A stretch of DNA of 64,000 nt from positions 29,886,001 to 29,950,000 of the forward strand of contig OX485803.1 in the NCBI GenBank assembly GCA_950295325.1. The letters are read 5' to 3'. Under the pieces are notes generated by a model. The model did not search any database. It saw only the letters and a program-made list of their open reading frames with translations, and was not told the DNA's origin. The stretch's first letter is position 1, and each line of letters starts with the position of its first letter. Made by a program: the position numbers and the translations under genes. Of this stretch, positions 6,501 through 61,432 are shown piece after piece. The DNA is from Polytrichum commune (Eukaryota; Streptophyta; Polytrichopsida; Polytrichales; Polytrichaceae).

Positions 6501-9500
6501 AGTCAAACATGTCATATTGAAAAGGCGGGAACAATAAAGGGTTATCATTTTATCATTTTTTAATATTTATGAAATAAATAAATTATTAACCACCCTGGTT
6601 TTCAACCCACACATAAAATATCATCGATGATGATCTTCTCGACCCATGCTACCTTTCAGTTCACAATATTAGGTGTGAAAGGTGTAGTTTTCAACCCACT
6701 GTGATGCATGTACATATGCATAATGTTGGCAATGGCATTGTGTGACATTGTATATAAACAAGATTTTACACTTGAAGATACTTGAAACTAGTGTGGAAAA
6801 AAAACGCAATGCAATGGAAGGGGTTCTAGCTTTTGAAAATACGTAAACCAATTTGCCACTCTTTCCAGTTGGTGACACTACCATCATATGAATCCTAAGC
6901 AATCATCCAACATCTGAAAAAAAATTATTCAAATATATTATTGTGGTAAATTTGCAATTTTTCTAGTGACACAAGATAGTCCCCCAATATTCATATGCTT
7001 GTAGTATAACTAATCCAAAATTGCAGCTTGTTGCTGAAATGGGAAAACTTATATGTTGTACAAATCAATGACAATTATTGGAAAGGAGAAAAAAAACAAC
7101 AAAACAAAAACAACAATTGACAAGAGGTTACCAACATTCTGAACAAAAGACACTGAATATTTACAAAACCAAGGCACATTCAAGCTACATGTGTGCAATA
7201 GCCTCTAGAATGTGACATGCATTTGCATGGCTATAACAATGTATAAGGTATGCCGGTGTTATTTGGTACGTTTTTCATGTTCTCCAACTTCTAAAGATTG
7301 GATTACCGAGTGAAACTTTTGTTGTAGCAGTAGCACATCTATGATGAAGCATCAACACAAATTGAACATCCCTAATTTGGTTATGGTTATCAAAATTGCA
7401 TGTTTCTTGATTCCTTAACTATAAAACATAGGTTTTCCCAATAGTGTTCACTATTGAGTGTGGAGTTATTAACAAGCGCGCAGGTGTAGTTTAACCTCTT
7501 TTAGACATATGTCTTTATGGTGTTTGTTCTTTGAACCTCACCAAACCACACACAAATAAAATATAAGTGTTCAAATAAGAACAATAATAGAATAAGGATT
7601 GCATCCTTAAAGAACTTATGCATAAAAAATTGTCGGTATTCACATTGTTGATTTTTCAAACCCTTAATAATTGTCCACGAACTAAGAACATGGTTGTTCT
7701 TTTATCCTTTTTTTGAGGAGACTTTCTGTTAAGAGCTCATTAGTTTGTCATGTGCCAGAGCATGTTTTGAAAGTTGGGTAAAACTTTTAGGACCTACTTT
7801 GGTCATCCCAATAACTTTGAGAGAACTTCAAAATTAAACTAGGGTTTGCTGTGATCTACCCATCCTAGTAGGACAAACTAGAAAGCCGGATTTCAATAAC
7901 TCTACTCAACTCTTTGAGTGAGATAATTCTTTAAACCTAAAAAAAATTGAGGGGACTTTATGCATAAGCTCTCAAACTCGTGTTTTAGCCAACTCAATGA
8001 GAGTTTGATGCCAAGACTCTACAAAGACTCTTAACAAAAAGCGGTTTGTAGGGAGGTGTTTGGGTTTAATGAGAAGTCACATACGTGATGCAAGGTGCAT
8101 GTCACATCATGGGGAAGAATGTACTTATTAATTACGACAATGTTAACGTCTATGCATCGAAATCTTAGGACACCGTTGCCAACTAAGCATGTGGTCCATA
8201 GCATGTGGTCCATCCAGTTGTCACTTTAGCCAAAGAATAGATCCTAAAAAATGCCATGTGTGGAGTATGTGTGCCAACATGCTCTATGGGACATGAGTTA
8301 CAATTCTCATGTGAGAGGATGTGCACATCGTGTCCATCCCCAAAAATTTAAAAATTTATGTATACATATATATGAGAAAATGCACAAGTGGTTGAATGCA
8401 AGTCTTGGGGTATGGATGGATGAGCTTGGGTCAACCTCACGCAAGCAATGTGTTTATGACAAAATGAAAGGTGGCATGGTTTGAACTCTAAAAAGGTAGG
8501 TAAGAAGAGAACACAATTGTGCCCTTGTATCACATGCCACAACAATATAGTAAACGTAAAATATGACTATCCACCAAAGACCTCCATCTAAAATGGGTAA
8601 CTTCTTATGAGACTCGTAGTAGATCACCGATACCCATATCACTCAAGTCCTTAAATTCCACTACATTCAACCTCAAACAAAGTATCTCCTCACTATGGGT
8701 CCATCATGTAACCTATGCCCACCAAAACAAAATGACAATTGTCTCTAGGTCCTATCATCTTGCACAAATAAACACATAAGTAAACTTCTCACTAACCCCC
8801 ACTTTAATTCATATATTACAATGATTGGTCGCCCAAGCAACCATCCCAAGAGAACTATAAAAATACGACATACTCCACCTATTACTTATTCAACAAGGTT
8901 GGTTGGTTCTGCCCCTAATAATTGTTAAAATGCATATGAGGCTCCACCCACACTGCCACCACCCAACGCCTTCTAGATTTTAAACCCCTATCAAAAAAAT
9001 CCACAATCTAATGGAAACTTTCTCATAAAGCTTTGTTTGATATCATCATGAACGTCATCCTTAATAACACAACATTGTCCTAAATAAAAGGAAACTCGAA
9101 AAGAAACAAATATGGTCCCACTAGACTAATTACCTTTCTTTCCCATGAGAATACATGTAACAAACTATAAACTAATCAACTAATTCATGGTCCACATATT
9201 GACAATATGCACTAAGCCACATGTGCCCCCAATGCCCACATTGACATGGATAGGATGTGGTGAATGGATATTGCATGTCAATGTACACCCATTGGCATTC
9301 TTTTTTTCTTTTCTTTTGTACTCATCAGCAAACCATTGTAATGTTGGGTCAAGAAAATTGTGATAATAATTCTCCTTTTGTGTGTCAGCCTTACAAAATC
9401 AACATTACTCAACCTAAACGTATAAAGAAAATTTGTCACCATAAATTATCCATGGCCATGTCAACAATTGACGTGTGATTGGTTCTAAAGCTTGGATTAG

Positions 9501-23769: not shown

Positions 23770-26700
23770 GCAATATCCAGCAATTTAATTTTAGTTTTAA
23801 TTTTTTTTTCTAGGGGAGGGGTATTGGATTTTATGGAATAAATTATGAGGACCATATAATTAAATAATATTGGCATTCAAGTTGTTTGATGGGATGGTAT
23901 GTTAATTATAAATTTGTTAGAGATTTTATATCCATAACTATATATTTATGTTATGAAATTGGAAAGTGTGAAAGTAGGACTAGAAGTGATAGAGCCATTT
24001 TTCAAGATTCCAATAAACAAAAACATAGCAATGCAAATTTCTTTTGGTGTATATTTATTGATGAGATGTAGTGTAGAAATTGCATCACAAATGGTTCAAG
24101 TATGAACCAATAAGGTCTAGCATACACACAGACAATTTAACCTCGAGCATAAGAAATTATGCTAGACACTTAGCATCATTGCTATCCAATGCATACAACT
24201 TGGAGAATGGTTGATATGTCGTTGTCGCGGTTGATATGATTGAATTGAAATCTATCCACTTAGAGTTTGAAGCATCATATTTGTACTTCAAAGAACCTTT
24301 AGCTTTAGAAAACCAATATAATAAGACCATAATGTTGCAACTAGACTTAGTTTTCTTCTCATTGGATGATGGTTTGTTTAGAAGGTCCATAATTTGTTGC
24401 GATATCCCTAGTTTGATCCGACTTTCCTTTACATATTCAACACCCTTCCTATCCAACAAGATCCCACATCTTTTGTTGTCACCACACTAGCTACAGTTGC
24501 AACTTTGCCTCATGTTTGTTTTCTTGCAACCTTTTATAGCAAATGTCTTCGATGTGTTATGCCTTTGCAAAAATATACTCCAATATATGAGCCCAATCCC
24601 AACTGACAAGTAGAACTAGTAGAAACAACAATCATATGGTTAGTAGATTTATTGAAATCACACACCCTCGTTGCCCACACAACACATGAGAGAGAGGGGG
24701 TGGAAATGAATCCCCGTTAGGGTTTCAGGGAGGTCATTCCTCCTTCCCTAAGGGTTTTCTTTGATCAATGAAATATTGAATGTTATGAATGAAATTCGTC
24801 TTAGTATTTGGGATGACGGGATAGTAGTCATTCATATTAGGCAAATGACATAAGGTTTCCTTGAGGTCTATGCAACAATTTGGCATTTGTTGGCATTCCA
24901 AAAAAAAAAAAAAACAAAAAAAAAACAACTTTAACAAACTTTTGATATTTCTCTTGGGATATTTGTTCACATAAGTTACATTTTTTTCTTTTTCTTATAT
25001 CACCTCATAACTAGTAGGCTAAGTTTCTTTAACATAAGTAAAAATTTATAAAGGCCACCCTCTGTTGATTATAACTTTGTTATAATTTTTTCTTTTGAAA
25101 TAAAATGCCGCCCAATGTTAAATTCCACCCCCTTTTGAAAAGTATTGAAAGTGTGGCCCCCCAAGATTGTGGCAAATTGACATGGGTATGAATGTTCTTG
25201 TATGAGATATAGATCCAAACGGTATTATAAGACAATTATTGTCAAACACCCACACTCTACATGTATCACAACAAATACAAATTCTTCATTATAGATACCC
25301 AAATGGTATCTAAAAAAGAGATACCATTTTAACATTGAATTAAACTTAATATCCTTTGGGATTAATACTTGTAACGTATAAGTATGAGGTCATTGTATAA
25401 TTTTTGACAAACTTATTCCATATACTCTCCCTCCGCGTGATAGAAATGTATCCAATAGACATTGGATACATTCTTGTGTCAAGAAATTGTCCTCATAATA
25501 AAATTCTTAACCCTTAAAGGATGTGGGGTGTGTATATAACGAGTATGTGACAACTTATGTGAAGCCTCAACCAATAGTGAAATATTGTTTTATGTGACGT
25601 ATTGTATTGAATCCTTTTCTAGCACAACTTATTAAAAAAACAATGAAAATAAATTTTTGTGTATTTGTGTCTAGATTACTTATACAAACACAAATGCTCA
25701 TAATATTCCATTCTGCATATGTGTACGTTCCCACCTGGATTTATGCACATGATAAATGGATGAATTTTGTACATGGTTGTTTTTGGGTTTTTTATTATTT
25801 TAAATATTTAAATGTCATTAAGTAACCTTAAGCCCCATTGTATGACATATGGAAGCCTCGATTGGGCCTCTCGGACATTTTAGGGTTAAGCATTGGAAGT
25901 ATGTTCCCTTTCCATCCTAAGTAGGACTAAGGTGGGCCTTAGATGTGAAGTATTCTTAGATATGTAAGAAATTTCCCTCTTCTCGTACCCACTTGAGAGC
26001 TTTGAGAATAACTTGGAACCATATAAAACACACCATTTGTAAATGTTTGAACTATTTAAAACACATTGTTTGTGAACAACTTGGATAAATTTGAACTTGA
26101 CCTCATATTGCTTGCTTTCTTTAGAGTGTTATTTCACACAAACATTTTTTGTGTAAGACCTTTGATTAAAACGAAATTGAAATAAAATAAGCATTTCATA
26201 TTTATTGAATGGAAGGGACGAAGTTGGTTTGAAAGTGCAAAAGATCATCTCACAATGTAAAACACCCTCTATTTCCCTATCCATAGGTTCAACATATTGC
26301 ATTAGTTGATTCATCTATAATATTTTGATATATGTTTCCATCAAATGGCTTTGATGTTGAATAATATCCATCAATGATAAACACTTGCTTTTTATGTGTG
26401 TGTGTGTGGGGGGGGGGGGGGTGAGATATGATGTATTTGGTTAGCTATTACTGCCCTAATGATGAGATCATCTAGGTCAGAGCAGGCCTACATGCTAAAA
26501 GTTGCTTTGTGTGGGAAGAGTGGATGGTTGGGCTTCAACCTTCAACTTTGTGGAGAGGCCCAAATATTTAATAAAAAGAAGGAGTAGCTTGAAACTCTTC
26601 ATTAATGTTACAAACTACTTTTTCTTTTTCTTTTTTTTTCATTCCATATGTTTCTCATCCAAGCTCAACATGCACATGTCATGTGAAAACGTTGGCCATA

Positions 26701-57200: not shown

Positions 57201-57635
57201 TGATAATAACACTAAATAGTTCTATTAGTTTGGGCCATGATACATGCCGGTAGGATGTGGTACAAACGTCTAAGAGATTTCTTAATAGATTGGGGTTTAA
57301 AGAATGATGCTCGGGGGGTGCACTGTACTAAATATGTACGAGTATACGTGAGTGCACAGGAGGGGTATTGATTTGGACCTTGCCGTATTACGTATACATA
57401 TGGTATACATGTTATAATTTATAGTTACGTACATATATGGAAGGCCTTTAAAAAGTATACAATAATTGTACTTGTATGGTACTATTATTATACTACATAT
57501 CATAAGTTTTCATATTGGATGAAATTAGGATTAACTGGGATTAGCGATTTTCGTTAGCAACCTTATAGGGTAGTATGAACCATGTACAAGGTGTCAAGGT
57601 AATATCGGGGAAAGAGGCAGTATTAGGGTTTTGAA

Positions 57636-57851
57636 ATGATTCGTTCAGCTCAAAGTAACAAGGAGATTGGTTTATGTTGGTATCAAAAAGGGGCTAATAA
57701 CAAGTGGACATATGATCTTATTGATCATTTGACGGTAGACTTAGAGACAATAATTGCATTGGCTACAATGACATATATTGGTGAATCAAATATTTATGAG
57801 TTACATCTGGGAGATGAAAAAGTTTTCAACGACTTTGCTAATGAAAGCTAG
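57636..57851 (+). CDS. 71-residue open frame inside the outer 785-bp element
   Basis: An ATG-started frame (phrases 'GLCWYQKGANNKWTYDLIDH', 'VDLETIIALATMTYIGESN') with protein-like composition and an acidic C-terminus. It is identical, residue for residue, in the inner copy. No domain recognised, and it is far too short for a transposase. It could be a captured gene fragment, a small accessory protein or a chance frame. Confidence 0.3.
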   Translation: MIRSAQSNKEIGLCWYQKGANNKWTYDLIDHLTVDLETIIALATMTYIGESNIYELHLGDEKVFNDFANES

Positions 57852-57927
57852 GATATTTTGTTATACATATTATAGGGGTTGATTATTGTTCAAAAGTATA
57901 TTTGTATACTTATGTTAATGACTATAT

Positions 57928-58712
57928 CTCGGGGGGTGCACCTTTCATTAAAACCTAGAATCACGTGCGTTCACTGCATACTCTAAAAACCCCCTATATA
58001 CAAGTTATTTTTTGTGAAATGAAGTAATACACATACAATTGCAACAATAAATATACAAGTGACAATATGTATACACAAAAAAACATCCATTCATATATAG
58101 TCATTAACATAAGTATACAAATATACTTTTGAACAATAATCAACCCCTATAATATGTATAACAAAATATCCTAGCTTTCATTAGCAAAGTCGTTGAAAAC
58201 TTTTTCATCTCCCAGATGTAACTCATAAATATTTGATTCACCAATATATGTCATTGTAGCCAATGCAATTATTGTCTCTAAGTCTACCGTCAAATGATCA
58301 ATAAGATCATATGTCCACTTGTTATTAGCCCCTTTTTGATACCAACATAAACCAATCTCCTTGTTACTTTGAGCTGAACGAATCATTTCAAAACCCTAAT
58401 ACTGCCTCTTTCCCCGATATTACCTTGACACCTTGTACATGGTTCATACTACCCTATAAGGTTGCTAACGAAAATCGCTAATCCCAGTTAATCCTAATTT
58501 CATCCAATATGAAAACTTATGATATGTAGTATAATAATAGTACCATACAAGTACAATTATTGTATACTTTTTAAAGGCCTTCCATATATGTACGTAACTA
58601 TAAATTATAACATGTATACCATATGTATACGTAATACGGCAAGGTCCAAATCAATACCCCTCCTGTGCACTCACGTATACTCGTACATATTTAGTACAGT
58701 GCACCCCCCGAG
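57928..58712 (-). mobile_element. Inner copy of the 785-bp TIR transposon, inserted in the outer copy
   Basis: A complete 785-bp copy in inverted orientation with the same 14-bp ends (57928-57941 and 58699-58712), flanked by the perfect 8-bp duplication GACTATAT (57920-57927 and 58713-58720) that belongs to the outer element. By eye I found no base difference from the outer copy. Together they form an inverted repeat with arms of about 618 bp (57310-57927 against 58095-58712). Confidence 0.88.
58171..58386 (-). CDS. 71-residue open frame inside the inner 785-bp element
   Basis: Identical to the frame at 57636-57851 of the outer copy; the two differ only in strand. The same remarks apply. Confidence 0.3.
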   Translation of the reverse strand: MIRSAQSNKEIGLCWYQKGANNKWTYDLIDHLTVDLETIIALATMTYIGESNIYELHLGDEKVFNDFANES

Positions 58713-58887
58713 GACTATATATGAATGGATGTTTTTTTGTGTATACATATTGTCACTTGTATATTTATTGTTGCAATTGTATGTGTATTACTTCATTTCA
58801 CAAAAAATAACTTGTATATAGGGGGTTTTTAGAGTATGCAGTGAACGCACGTGATTCTAGGTTTTAATGAAAGGTGCACCCCCCGAG

Positions 58888-59849
58888 GAATGATGAAGTT
58901 TTCCATGTATCTTTATTAAACGGACTCACACAAAATTAGTTATTGTGGCCGTATATGTTGATGACCTCAACATCATTGGCACGACTGATGCCATCTCCGA
59001 GATTGTTTCACAATTCAAAGGTGAATTTGAGATGAAAGATCTTGGCGAAACCACCTTCTGTTTTGGCCTACAGGTTGAACACCTTGCAGGAAGTATATTT
59101 TTACATCAGAGTTTGTATACTCGAAATCTATTCAAACGTTTCTTAATGGATGCGGCTCACCCACTAAGTTCCCCAATGGTGGTACGGTCATTGGATCTGA
59201 AGAAGGATGAGTTCAGACCTAACATTGCATTTGCCGTTAATATATTGGCTAAATTTAGTTCTAAGCCAACAAAACGACATTAGAATGGTGTCAAACATAT
59301 CAAACGATACCTCAAGGGCACTAAGGATTTATGATTGTTTTATAAAGTTGGAGTAAATAACAACATCAAAGGATACGTGGATGCATATTACCTATTTGAT
59401 CCACATAAAGGAAAATCACAAACATGTTATGTTTTCCTTAGACAAGGAGCAACGTCTTGGAAATATCTTGGAAATCAACGAAGCAGAGTCTTGCAACAAC
59501 ATCATCAAACCATTCAAAAATCATAGCTTTGCATGAGGCTTCCCGTGAATGCGTTTGGTTAAGACTAGTTGATGGCTTCATCAAAGGTTCTTGTGGTTTT
59601 TCCAATGTTCCAGAATCTCCAACAATGATCTATGAAGATAATGCAACTTGCATTGCTTAGATAAAGGTGGGCTACATCAAAGGAGATCGAATCAAACACA
59701 TCTTACCAAAGTTCTTTTTAACTCATGAATTATTAGGATCAAATTTAGATGTGATGCAAGTAAGGTCTTCTGATAACCAAACAGACTTATTCATTAAGTC
59801 ATTACCAACAGCTAGGCATAGGCAAATTGTTCAGGAAATAGGAATGTGA
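58888..59849 (+). pseudogene. Copia reverse transcriptase/RNase H pseudogene (plus strand)
   Basis: Copia reverse transcriptase copies the element's RNA into DNA. Visible in order: PCIFIKRT; the catalytic YVDDLNIIGT (about 58957); FEMKDLGETTFCFGLQ; LYTRNLFKRF. Then comes a deletion of about 30 residues after KKDEFRP (the opposite-strand copy keeps GPEAPYLGAIGALMYLANC there). NIAFAVNILAKFSSKPT follows, then RNase H parts GYVDAYYLFDPHKGKSQT, ALHEASRECVWLR and IYEDNATCIA. In-frame stops at 59281 and 59658 and frameshifts near 59460 inactivate it. Confidence 0.8.
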
Positions 59850-60034
59850 AGGTTTTCATCCCTACGTGACATGTAAATAATCATGTCTAGGCCCTTCCAC
59901 TCTTTTCCCCTTCACTCGTGATATTTTTTACCTCAATTGTGAGGATTTTTTATTTTTTATTTTTTAATATTTTTTATTTTATCACAGCAAGGTTTTTTAC
60001 GAGGGAAGGCAACATGATATATAAACTAGACTCG

Positions 60035-60316: not shown

Positions 60317-60538
60317 CTCCCCCTAGACACAACGAGTTTAGTTTATATACCATGTTGCATTCCCTTGTTAAAAACCTTACCGTGATAAAAAAAAACCTCC
60401 TCACAATTGAGGTAAAAAATATCACGAATGAAGGGAAAAATAGTGGAAGGGCCTAGACATGATTATTTACATGTCAGGTAGGGATGAAAACCTCGGCATC
60501 CCTATTCCCTGAACAACTTGCCTATGCCTAGTTGTTGG

Positions 60539-61432
60539 TTATGACTTAGTGAATAAGTCTGCTAGATTATCAGAAGACCTTACTTGCATCACATCTATAT
60601 ATGATCCTAACAATTCATGAGTGAAAAAGAACTTTGGTAAGATGTGTTTGATTCGATCTCCTTTGATGTAGCCCGCCTTTATCTGAGCAATGCAAGCTGC
60701 ATTATCTTCATAGATCATTGTTGGAGATTCTCGAACATTGGAAAAACCACAAGAACCTTTGATGAAGCCATCCACCAGCCTTAGCCAAACGCATTCGCGG
60801 GAAGCCTCATGCAGGGCTATGATTTTTTAATGGTTTGACGATGTTGCTACAATAATCTGCTTCGTTGATTTCCAAGATATTACTGCTCCTTGTCTAAGGA
60901 AAACATAGCCTGTTTGTGATTTTCCTTTATGTGGATCGGAAAGGTAACCTGCATCCACGTATCCTTTGATTTTGCTATCCTCTCCAGCTTTATAAAACAA
61001 TCCTAAATCCTCAGTGCCCATGAGGTATCGTAGGATATGTTTGACATCATTCCAATGCCATTTTGTTGGCTTAGCACTAAATCTAGCCAATAAATTAACA
61101 ACAAAAGCAATGTCAGGTCTGGTGCAATTTGCCAAATACATCAATGCACCTATTGCCCCCAAATATGGAGCTTCAGGTCCCAAACATTTTTCCCCCTCAT
61201 CTCATGGTCTAAACTCATCCTTCTTCGGATCCAATGATCGTATCACCATCGGGGAACTTAGTGGGTGAGCCGCATTTATTGAGAAACACTTGAGTAGCTT
61301 TTGAGTATACAAACTCTGATGTAGAAAAATACTTCTTGCAAGATGTTCAATCTGTAGGCCAAGACAGAAGGTGGTTTCGCCAAGACCTTTCATTTCAAAT
61401 GCAGTGCTACAAATCCTATATGGAAATATCAT
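60539..61432 (-). pseudogene. Copia reverse transcriptase C-terminus/RNase H pseudogene (minus strand)
   Basis: Read on the minus strand: FEMKGLGETTFCLGLQIEHL, LYTQKLLKCF, KKDEFRP followed by a stop, then GPEAPYLGAIGALMYLANC, RPDIAFVVNLLARFSAKPT, GYVDAGYLSDPHKGKSQTGY, VISWKSTKQ, ALHEASRECVWLR, IYEDNAACIAQIKAGYIKGD and ADLFTKS. This is the end of the copia polyprotein, with several in-frame stops. The YVDD catalytic motif is deleted. It is better preserved in its RNase H part than the plus-strand copy. Confidence 0.8.

Follow-up and report, generated by a model that had tools for sequence, protein, structure and literature searches.

A 785-bp transposon nested in an inverted, identical copy of itself in Polytrichum commune, very probably a non-autonomous derivative of a P-like DDE transposon group

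A transposon of 785 bp in the genome of Polytrichum commune has received the insertion of an identical, inverted copy of itself. It is very probable that the element is a non-autonomous derivative of a DDE transposon group that is P-like in layout, and that the self-nested pair is a counterpart of the double Ds of maize. The coding members of this group would encode a very large transposase that finds no match in the standard protein library and that may define a new branch of DNA transposons. The nested pair is located in the window, i.e. the whole stretch of 64,000 nucleotides that was analysed, where it spans 1594 bp, at C1:29943302-29944895 of the assembly, and is composed of the following parts, each given with the evidence used.

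57302..57309, no strand: left target-site duplication GAATGATG of the outer copy (direct comparison; a single GAATGATG in the empty-site paralogues)
57310..57927, plus strand: outer 785-bp element, positions 1-618, with its terminal inverted repeat (TIR) at 57310-57323 (sequence, 14-mer matches)
57591..57848, plus strand: putative transposase C-terminus remnant of the outer copy (69% identical to residues 704-796 in the third open stretch of the coding copy L046)
57636..57851, plus strand: 71-codon frame of the outer copy (0 Pfam families at E<=10)
57920..57927, no strand: left duplication GACTATAT of the inner copy, equal to element positions 611-618 (direct comparison)
57928..58712, minus strand: inner 785-bp element, inverted and identical to the outer (direct comparison)
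58171..58386, minus strand: 71-codon frame as carried by the inner copy, mirroring 57636-57851 (from copy identity; mirror tblastn match at 58174-58431)
58713..58720, no strand: right duplication GACTATAT of the inner copy (direct comparison)
58721..58887, plus strand: outer 785-bp element, positions 619-785, with its TIR at 58874-58887 (sequence, 14-mer matches)
58888..58895, no strand: right target-site duplication GAATGATG of the outer copy (direct comparison)

Aligned as the initial annotation had proposed, the outer copy, joined from its two parts (57310-57927 and 58721-58887), shows no difference from the reverse complement of 57928-58712 (785/785), each copy being 785 bp long. The outer copy is flanked by a perfect 8-bp target-site duplication (GAATGATG/GAATGATG) and the inner one, inverted relative to the outer, by a perfect 8-bp duplication of its own (GACTATAT/GACTATAT). 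The TIR proper consists of 14 bp and is perfect, no similarity between the two ends being found beyond it; this 14-mer, CTCGGGGGGTGCAC, is matched at four places in the window when as many as 2 mismatches are allowed, against a mean of 0.06 and a largest value of 1 in 100 shuffles. The inverted arms of the nested pair are 618 nt long, 100% complementary and separated by a spacer of 167 nt; two pairs of 100% complementary arms are present, both confined to the 785-bp element. The initial annotation had described a transposon inverted within its identical copy, a perfect 8-bp duplication around each of the two, four 14-bp ends and hairpin arms of about 618 bp, and all of these were confirmed, the nesting to the base. 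The empty outer site is represented by two copia paralogues (L086 and L087), which cross the insertion point with a single GAATGATG. Inverted copia-like pieces, 88-92% complementary, adjoin the nested pair at 59022-59956 and 60387-61403 of the window.

Perfect inverted repeats, such as the one present here, are a known weak point of genome assemblies, and a false inverted duplication would be one explanation of the pair. However, the inversion stops exactly at the TIRs and is accompanied by the inner copy's own 8-bp duplication, both of the 100% arm pairs reported lie inside the element, and the same insertion anatomy is found across the rest of the family. We regard an assembly artefact as extremely improbable and treat the pair as a real insertion.

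The genome searched comprises 407,808,757 bases in 64 contigs, and all the matches listed are carried by C1 to C7 (406.1 Mb). It contains LEAFY (6 matches from 6 scored), a gene of land plants and closely related algae; one LEAFY copy carries a residue typical of mosses, and another carries the common residue. The exact end 14-mer occurs 355+366 times, against 3+4 times for the pattern read backwards, which served as control. Among the first 100 places listed there are 27 adjacent plus/minus end pairs less than 8 kb apart, spanning 271 to 1752 bp, and the order plus-plus-minus-minus within a few kb appears once, at the nested pair. The 785-bp query gave 42 matches from 40 scored of 1638 candidates, with 40 near-full-length rows, and the best 30 of these 40 were fetched for the duplication count and for a consensus. 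An 8-bp duplication is perfect in 21 of the best 30 copies, has 1 mismatch in 4 and 2 mismatches in 1, and has at least 6 mismatches in the remaining 4; it is also perfect in 12 of the 14 adjacent end pairs from 15 further loci. The initial annotation had made its reading depend on such duplications at other copies in the genome, where they are indeed found. A target-site preference, judged from 36 distinct sites with perfect 8-bp duplications, amounts at most to a weak tendency of the duplication to begin with G and end with C. Inverted repeats, a duplication of fixed length and a relation to a coding element, which characterize non-autonomous TIR DNA transposons, are all present in this family.

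A third copy identical to the outer and the inner one (0 differences to both) was found at C1:59231813-59232597, 29 Mb from the nested pair. These three copies have the same 11 differences from the 30-copy consensus; the whole set of 11 changes is absent from the rest of the 30 copies, and several of the single changes recur in other copies. A second identical 785-bp set is formed by L003, L004 and L006, which lie on three different contigs. Owing to these two sets of identical copies, recent movement of the 785-bp family is well supported, and the earlier claim to this effect, which had been drawn from identity plus intact duplications, is upheld. Among the other loci, L041:113-770 has a family end at 301 with family remnants on both sides and is possibly a second nested insertion, of copies that are unlike each other. 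At L040:1192-2445 (minus strand) and L045:911-2029 (minus strand; both derived coordinates), copies of a DUF4419 gene lie between ends of the transposon family, the DUF4419 assignment having a Pfam E of 2.2e-69 for the L045 frame.

The identity of the two nested copies could also be secondary: a different member of the family would have inserted in the ordinary way, and the arms would later have been homogenised by gene conversion, of which inverted repeats with a short spacer, like the nested arms, are capable. The copy 29 Mb away, however, shares this sequence, including every one of the 11 differences from the consensus, so that the identity of the arms needs no conversion, and conversion would have to span two arm pairs separately; this explanation is very unlikely.

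The reading that we prefer is the insertion of an already identical copy. The inner insertion would most likely derive from the outer copy, for example from sister chromatid to sister during or just after replication, since, among the copies that were scored, the identical set to which both belong has only three members. By simple arithmetic, a random hit on one of the two existing copies of the set has a probability of 2 x 785 / 408 Mb, i.e. about 4 in a million, and it is far likelier that the outer copy, or its sister, inserted into itself. Against a special significance of the pair, a family of this size can be expected to show occasional self-nesting. An insertion route between sister chromatids is the one generally proposed for the double Ds of maize. 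For Ac in maize, one report describes transposition with reversed ends, the target being replicated DNA of the sister chromatid (PMC4270019).

The 785-bp form corresponds to a 1396-bp form minus about 610 internal bp (junction 355|964), and length classes from 271 to 1752 bp have common ends. Two longer forms with both ends are known: one of 3047 bp, which has perfect ends, a perfect duplication (GATGGCCA) and part of the transposase frame, and one of 2982 bp, which has 1 mismatch in one end and 1 in the duplication. The nearest coding copy, L046 (C4:55009500-55018500), is open over 392, 260 and 796 codons, three stretches that lie in the same frame and are separated by single stops, i.e. two in-frame stops; its frame stops 232 bp short of a perfect right TIR, and only its 3' part is common with the 3-kb forms. 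No left TIR with 3 or fewer mismatches was found in the 3059 bases upstream of its first stretch, the best candidate having 5 mismatches out of 14. Between the 785-bp copies and the last L046 stretch, identity is 69% over residues 704-796, and it is on this match that the 71-codon frame is read as the C-terminal remnant of a putative transposase of about 1450-1550 codons and not as a gene of its own. The earlier remark that the frame matches no known family stands (no Pfam match at E<=10), and the reading as a remnant is added to it.

Other copies close to these forms are partial. L059, which alone among the other copies closely resembles L046 at the N-terminus, is broken and without the 3' part; L047 keeps the right end together with a portion of the frame; at L048+L051 and at L049+L052 the two ends are present, but the frame is partial. 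The search for an autonomous partner, which the initial annotation had suggested, yielded coding relatives, but among the matches found by the genome searches none is an intact coding element whose ends are exactly CTCGGGGGGTGCAC. In the window itself, positions 24148-24656 (minus strand) hold a C-terminal remnant of the same transposase group, 32-41% identical and in shifted frames. We propose that the 785-bp cut-and-paste element would have arisen by internal deletion of a longer element with a DDE transposase of about 1500 residues, the presumed direction being from long to short, and that the deletion would have spared the two ends and a few dozen codons at the end of the frame. A putative transposase acting in trans would recognise the 14-bp ends and insert the element with an 8-bp duplication.

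A genome search with part of the L046 frame, in which 76 of 435 candidates were scored, produced 79 matches; by hand count, 9 of the 79 fall in frames that stay open for 1493-1549 codons, the match itself being free of stops. Five of these nine intact-frame relatives were fetched, and both ends were found for four of the five: L056 (5802 bp, perfect duplication TCTAGATT), L054+L090 (8426 bp, perfect duplication GTGATTTC), L057+L089 (6351 bp, perfect duplication AAAGAAAC) and L058+L088 (8315 bp, duplication ACTAGTGT/ACTAGGGT with one mismatch). Ends of the CYCGGGGGG type are present on all four, those of L057 and L058 having been paired by eye, with first bases that differ between their two ends. 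L055 shares 99.4% identity with L054 across 5.0 kb; it has a right end and, at the N-terminus, foreign sequence, and neither the locus nor 2500 bases further upstream (L091) yielded a left end. Around the long frames of L060 to L064, which are more distant or broken relatives, no end pair was found. A mini element of 286 bp with ends CTCGGGGGGTTCAC and a perfect duplication CCAACAAG (L061:5581-5866) adjoins the frame (1189 codons) of a relative that is 34% identical. A further repeat, about 970 bp long, lies in or beside the left end of L032 (judged by translated frame), the N-terminus of L055 and L046 at about 7396-8369.

The proteins of these elements are not recognised by the usual libraries: no convincing Pfam or PDB match was obtained with the 71-codon frame, with longer remnants, with pieces of L046 or with full proteins. 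A scan of 7 proteins or pieces from 6 loci, and a second scan of 5 full proteins, gave no convincing Pfam family at E<=10, in scans where the HMMER filters drop most matches above E of about 0.1. The best weak match, found in an N-terminal piece from L060, was to a zinc-finger model and stayed below the cut-off of that model (E 0.0016); a thioredoxin model reached E 0.038, also below its cut-off, in L058, and a PDB search with a profile of five proteins had one match, KWOCA_102, at E 1.8. In the viral and prokaryote collections, scanned with two peptide patterns each, a kind of scan that can miss relatives, no relatives were found. Known superfamilies are detectable in the same genome, since positive controls match readily: the hAT model gave 150 matches from 150 scored of 1060 candidates, and the MULE model 142 matches from 150 scored candidates.

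A conserved core was aligned in 26 rows from 31 loci, which include near copies, 17 rows being kept by hhalign; L055 and L062 were dropped as near copies, L082 and L083 because their longest frame is below 300, and L073 because fewer than 200 residues were aligned. In L056 numbering, and with the sites chosen with the P motif in mind, the core shows D757 in 21/21, D876 in 22/22, D923 in 22/23, H926 in 24/24 and E1118 in 25/26 rows. Among the 26 aligned rows, 21 are complete at the five sites and all 21 have D, D, DxxH and E, with spacings of 119-120 (D-D), 42-49 (D-DxxH) and 188-195 (DxxH-E). Conservation alone does not single out the named acids, because 110 of the 461 core columns are near-invariant. 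For this transposase core we infer an RNase H-like fold.

The D-D-[C/D]xxH-E layout is found in hAT transposases too, and an ordinary but diverged branch of hAT would have this layout in common with the coding group; hAT elements are, moreover, abundant in this genome, as the control counts show. The duplications of hAT elements follow the pattern nTnnnnAn, whereas no strong pattern of this kind was seen in the 36 duplications, and no hAT model was found at E<=10 in the proteins and pieces that were scanned, the same-genome control being positive. Ac/Ds elements, which belong to hAT, are described in PMC3260210 as having 8-bp duplications and C/TAGGG ends. The coding group has duplications of the same length and, like Ac/Ds, internal-deletion derivatives; it differs in the absence of a detected hAT domain and in its ends, which begin CTCGGGGG instead of C/TAGGG, in line with the earlier remark that they are not hAT-like. 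An origin of the group as a diverged hAT branch is, on balance, unlikely. Mutator elements were also considered and rejected, no MULE match being found in the coding proteins in spite of the 142 in the genome. MULE duplications are of about 9 bp, compared with 8 bp here.

The P superfamily is the other candidate in layout. P elements make 8-bp duplications, as does the coding group. The signature given for P in PMC8230255 is D230, D303, D(2)H at D339 and E531, with spacings of 73, 36 and 192. Its order is matched by D757, D876, D923xxH926 and E1118 in L056, and the DxxH-to-E spacing of 188-195 is close to the 192 of P; the top local hhalign block covers the E531 motif when 8 rows are used and the D230 motif when 26 are used, and a lenient 26-row alignment places D230 onto D757 and E531 onto E1118. 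On the other hand, in that lenient alignment D303 and D339 are out of register with D876 and D923, and the D-to-D spacing is 119-120 compared with 73. The scores do not rise above chance, in comparisons of a P transposase PDB chain with shuffles: hhalign gave 18.6 with 26 rows (shuffles 16.7 +/- 2.9, maximum 26.9 of 100) and 17.4 with 8 rows (shuffles 16.3 +/- 2.8, maximum 25.0 of 150), and in hmmsearch the P element ranks behind 19 of 201 shuffled or reversed sequences. No P-type Pfam model matched in the coding relatives, and the protein is about twice as long as that of P and has no THAP domain match. The P RNase H model PF21787 had no genome match, a null that says little, as no control matched either.

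That the coding group is a land-plant branch of the P superfamily proper is a serious possibility, which we nevertheless hold to be somewhat less than probable. Since order and last spacing agree and the score is not above that of shuffles, we describe the group as one that appears to act like a DDE transposase and is P-like in layout, a label that refers to the order and spacing of a few residues, and we do not file it as a P element. The initial guess of "hAT or P" is therefore kept in its second half, through the P-type D-D-DxxH-E order, and loses its first, no hAT domain having appeared in the Pfam scans. Compared with the Drosophila P element and THAP9, the group has in common the order of D, D, DxxH and E, the DxxH-to-E spacing and the 8-bp duplication; it differs in that its protein, about 1500 residues long, finds no convincing match in Pfam, in its D-to-D spacing of 119, in ends unlike those of P and in the lack of a significant sequence score.

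The coding group very probably belongs among the DDE TIR transposons, and there is a fair chance that it is a new superfamily. A review of 2022 gives Tc1-Mariner, hAT, Sola, MuDR, PIF-Harbinger and CACTA as the TIR superfamilies of plants (PMC9033089), and the coding relatives had no convincing Pfam model match for any of these six, the controls covering hAT and MULE only. In a literature search of titles and abstract openings, with Repbase and closed papers outside its scope, no description of such a group was found, nor any paper pairing CTCGGGGGG with "terminal inverted repeat". We tentatively suggest, as a reading only a little short of evenly balanced, a previously undescribed superfamily of land plants that has CYCGGGGGG ends, 8-bp duplications, a frame of about 1500 codons with a zinc-finger-like N-terminus (one match below its cut-off) and a D(119)D(47)DxxH(195)E core, that is distantly allied to P, and that has many intact coding copies and short derivatives in a double-Ds-like, possibly chromosome-breaking structure. 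If the lineage is new or of P type, annotation based on Pfam-like libraries overlooks a large, recently moving fraction of a plant genome.

Among known kinds of short elements, MITEs and Ds-del type elements resemble the present family in being short, in having many copies and in having ends in common with coding elements; the 785-bp element differs in that it retains a coding remnant and is nested in its own copy. The double Ds of maize (state I, the chromosome-breaking Ds) consists of a Ds inserted in inverted orientation into an identical Ds, and this architecture is found in the nested pair. The self-nested pair is a natural counterpart of the structure behind classic Ds chromosome breakage. 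In maize B73, according to PMC3260210, double Ds of the chromosome-breaking kind were not detected, and nested Ds in maize are argued to be selected against. A plant that carries such a pair makes selection against nested pairs testable outside hAT. The two systems have in common a deletion derivative of a coding element, inverted in an identical copy, with 8-bp duplications; they differ in their ends and transposase group, and in that the present pair is known from a genome assembly and the maize one from a genetic stock.
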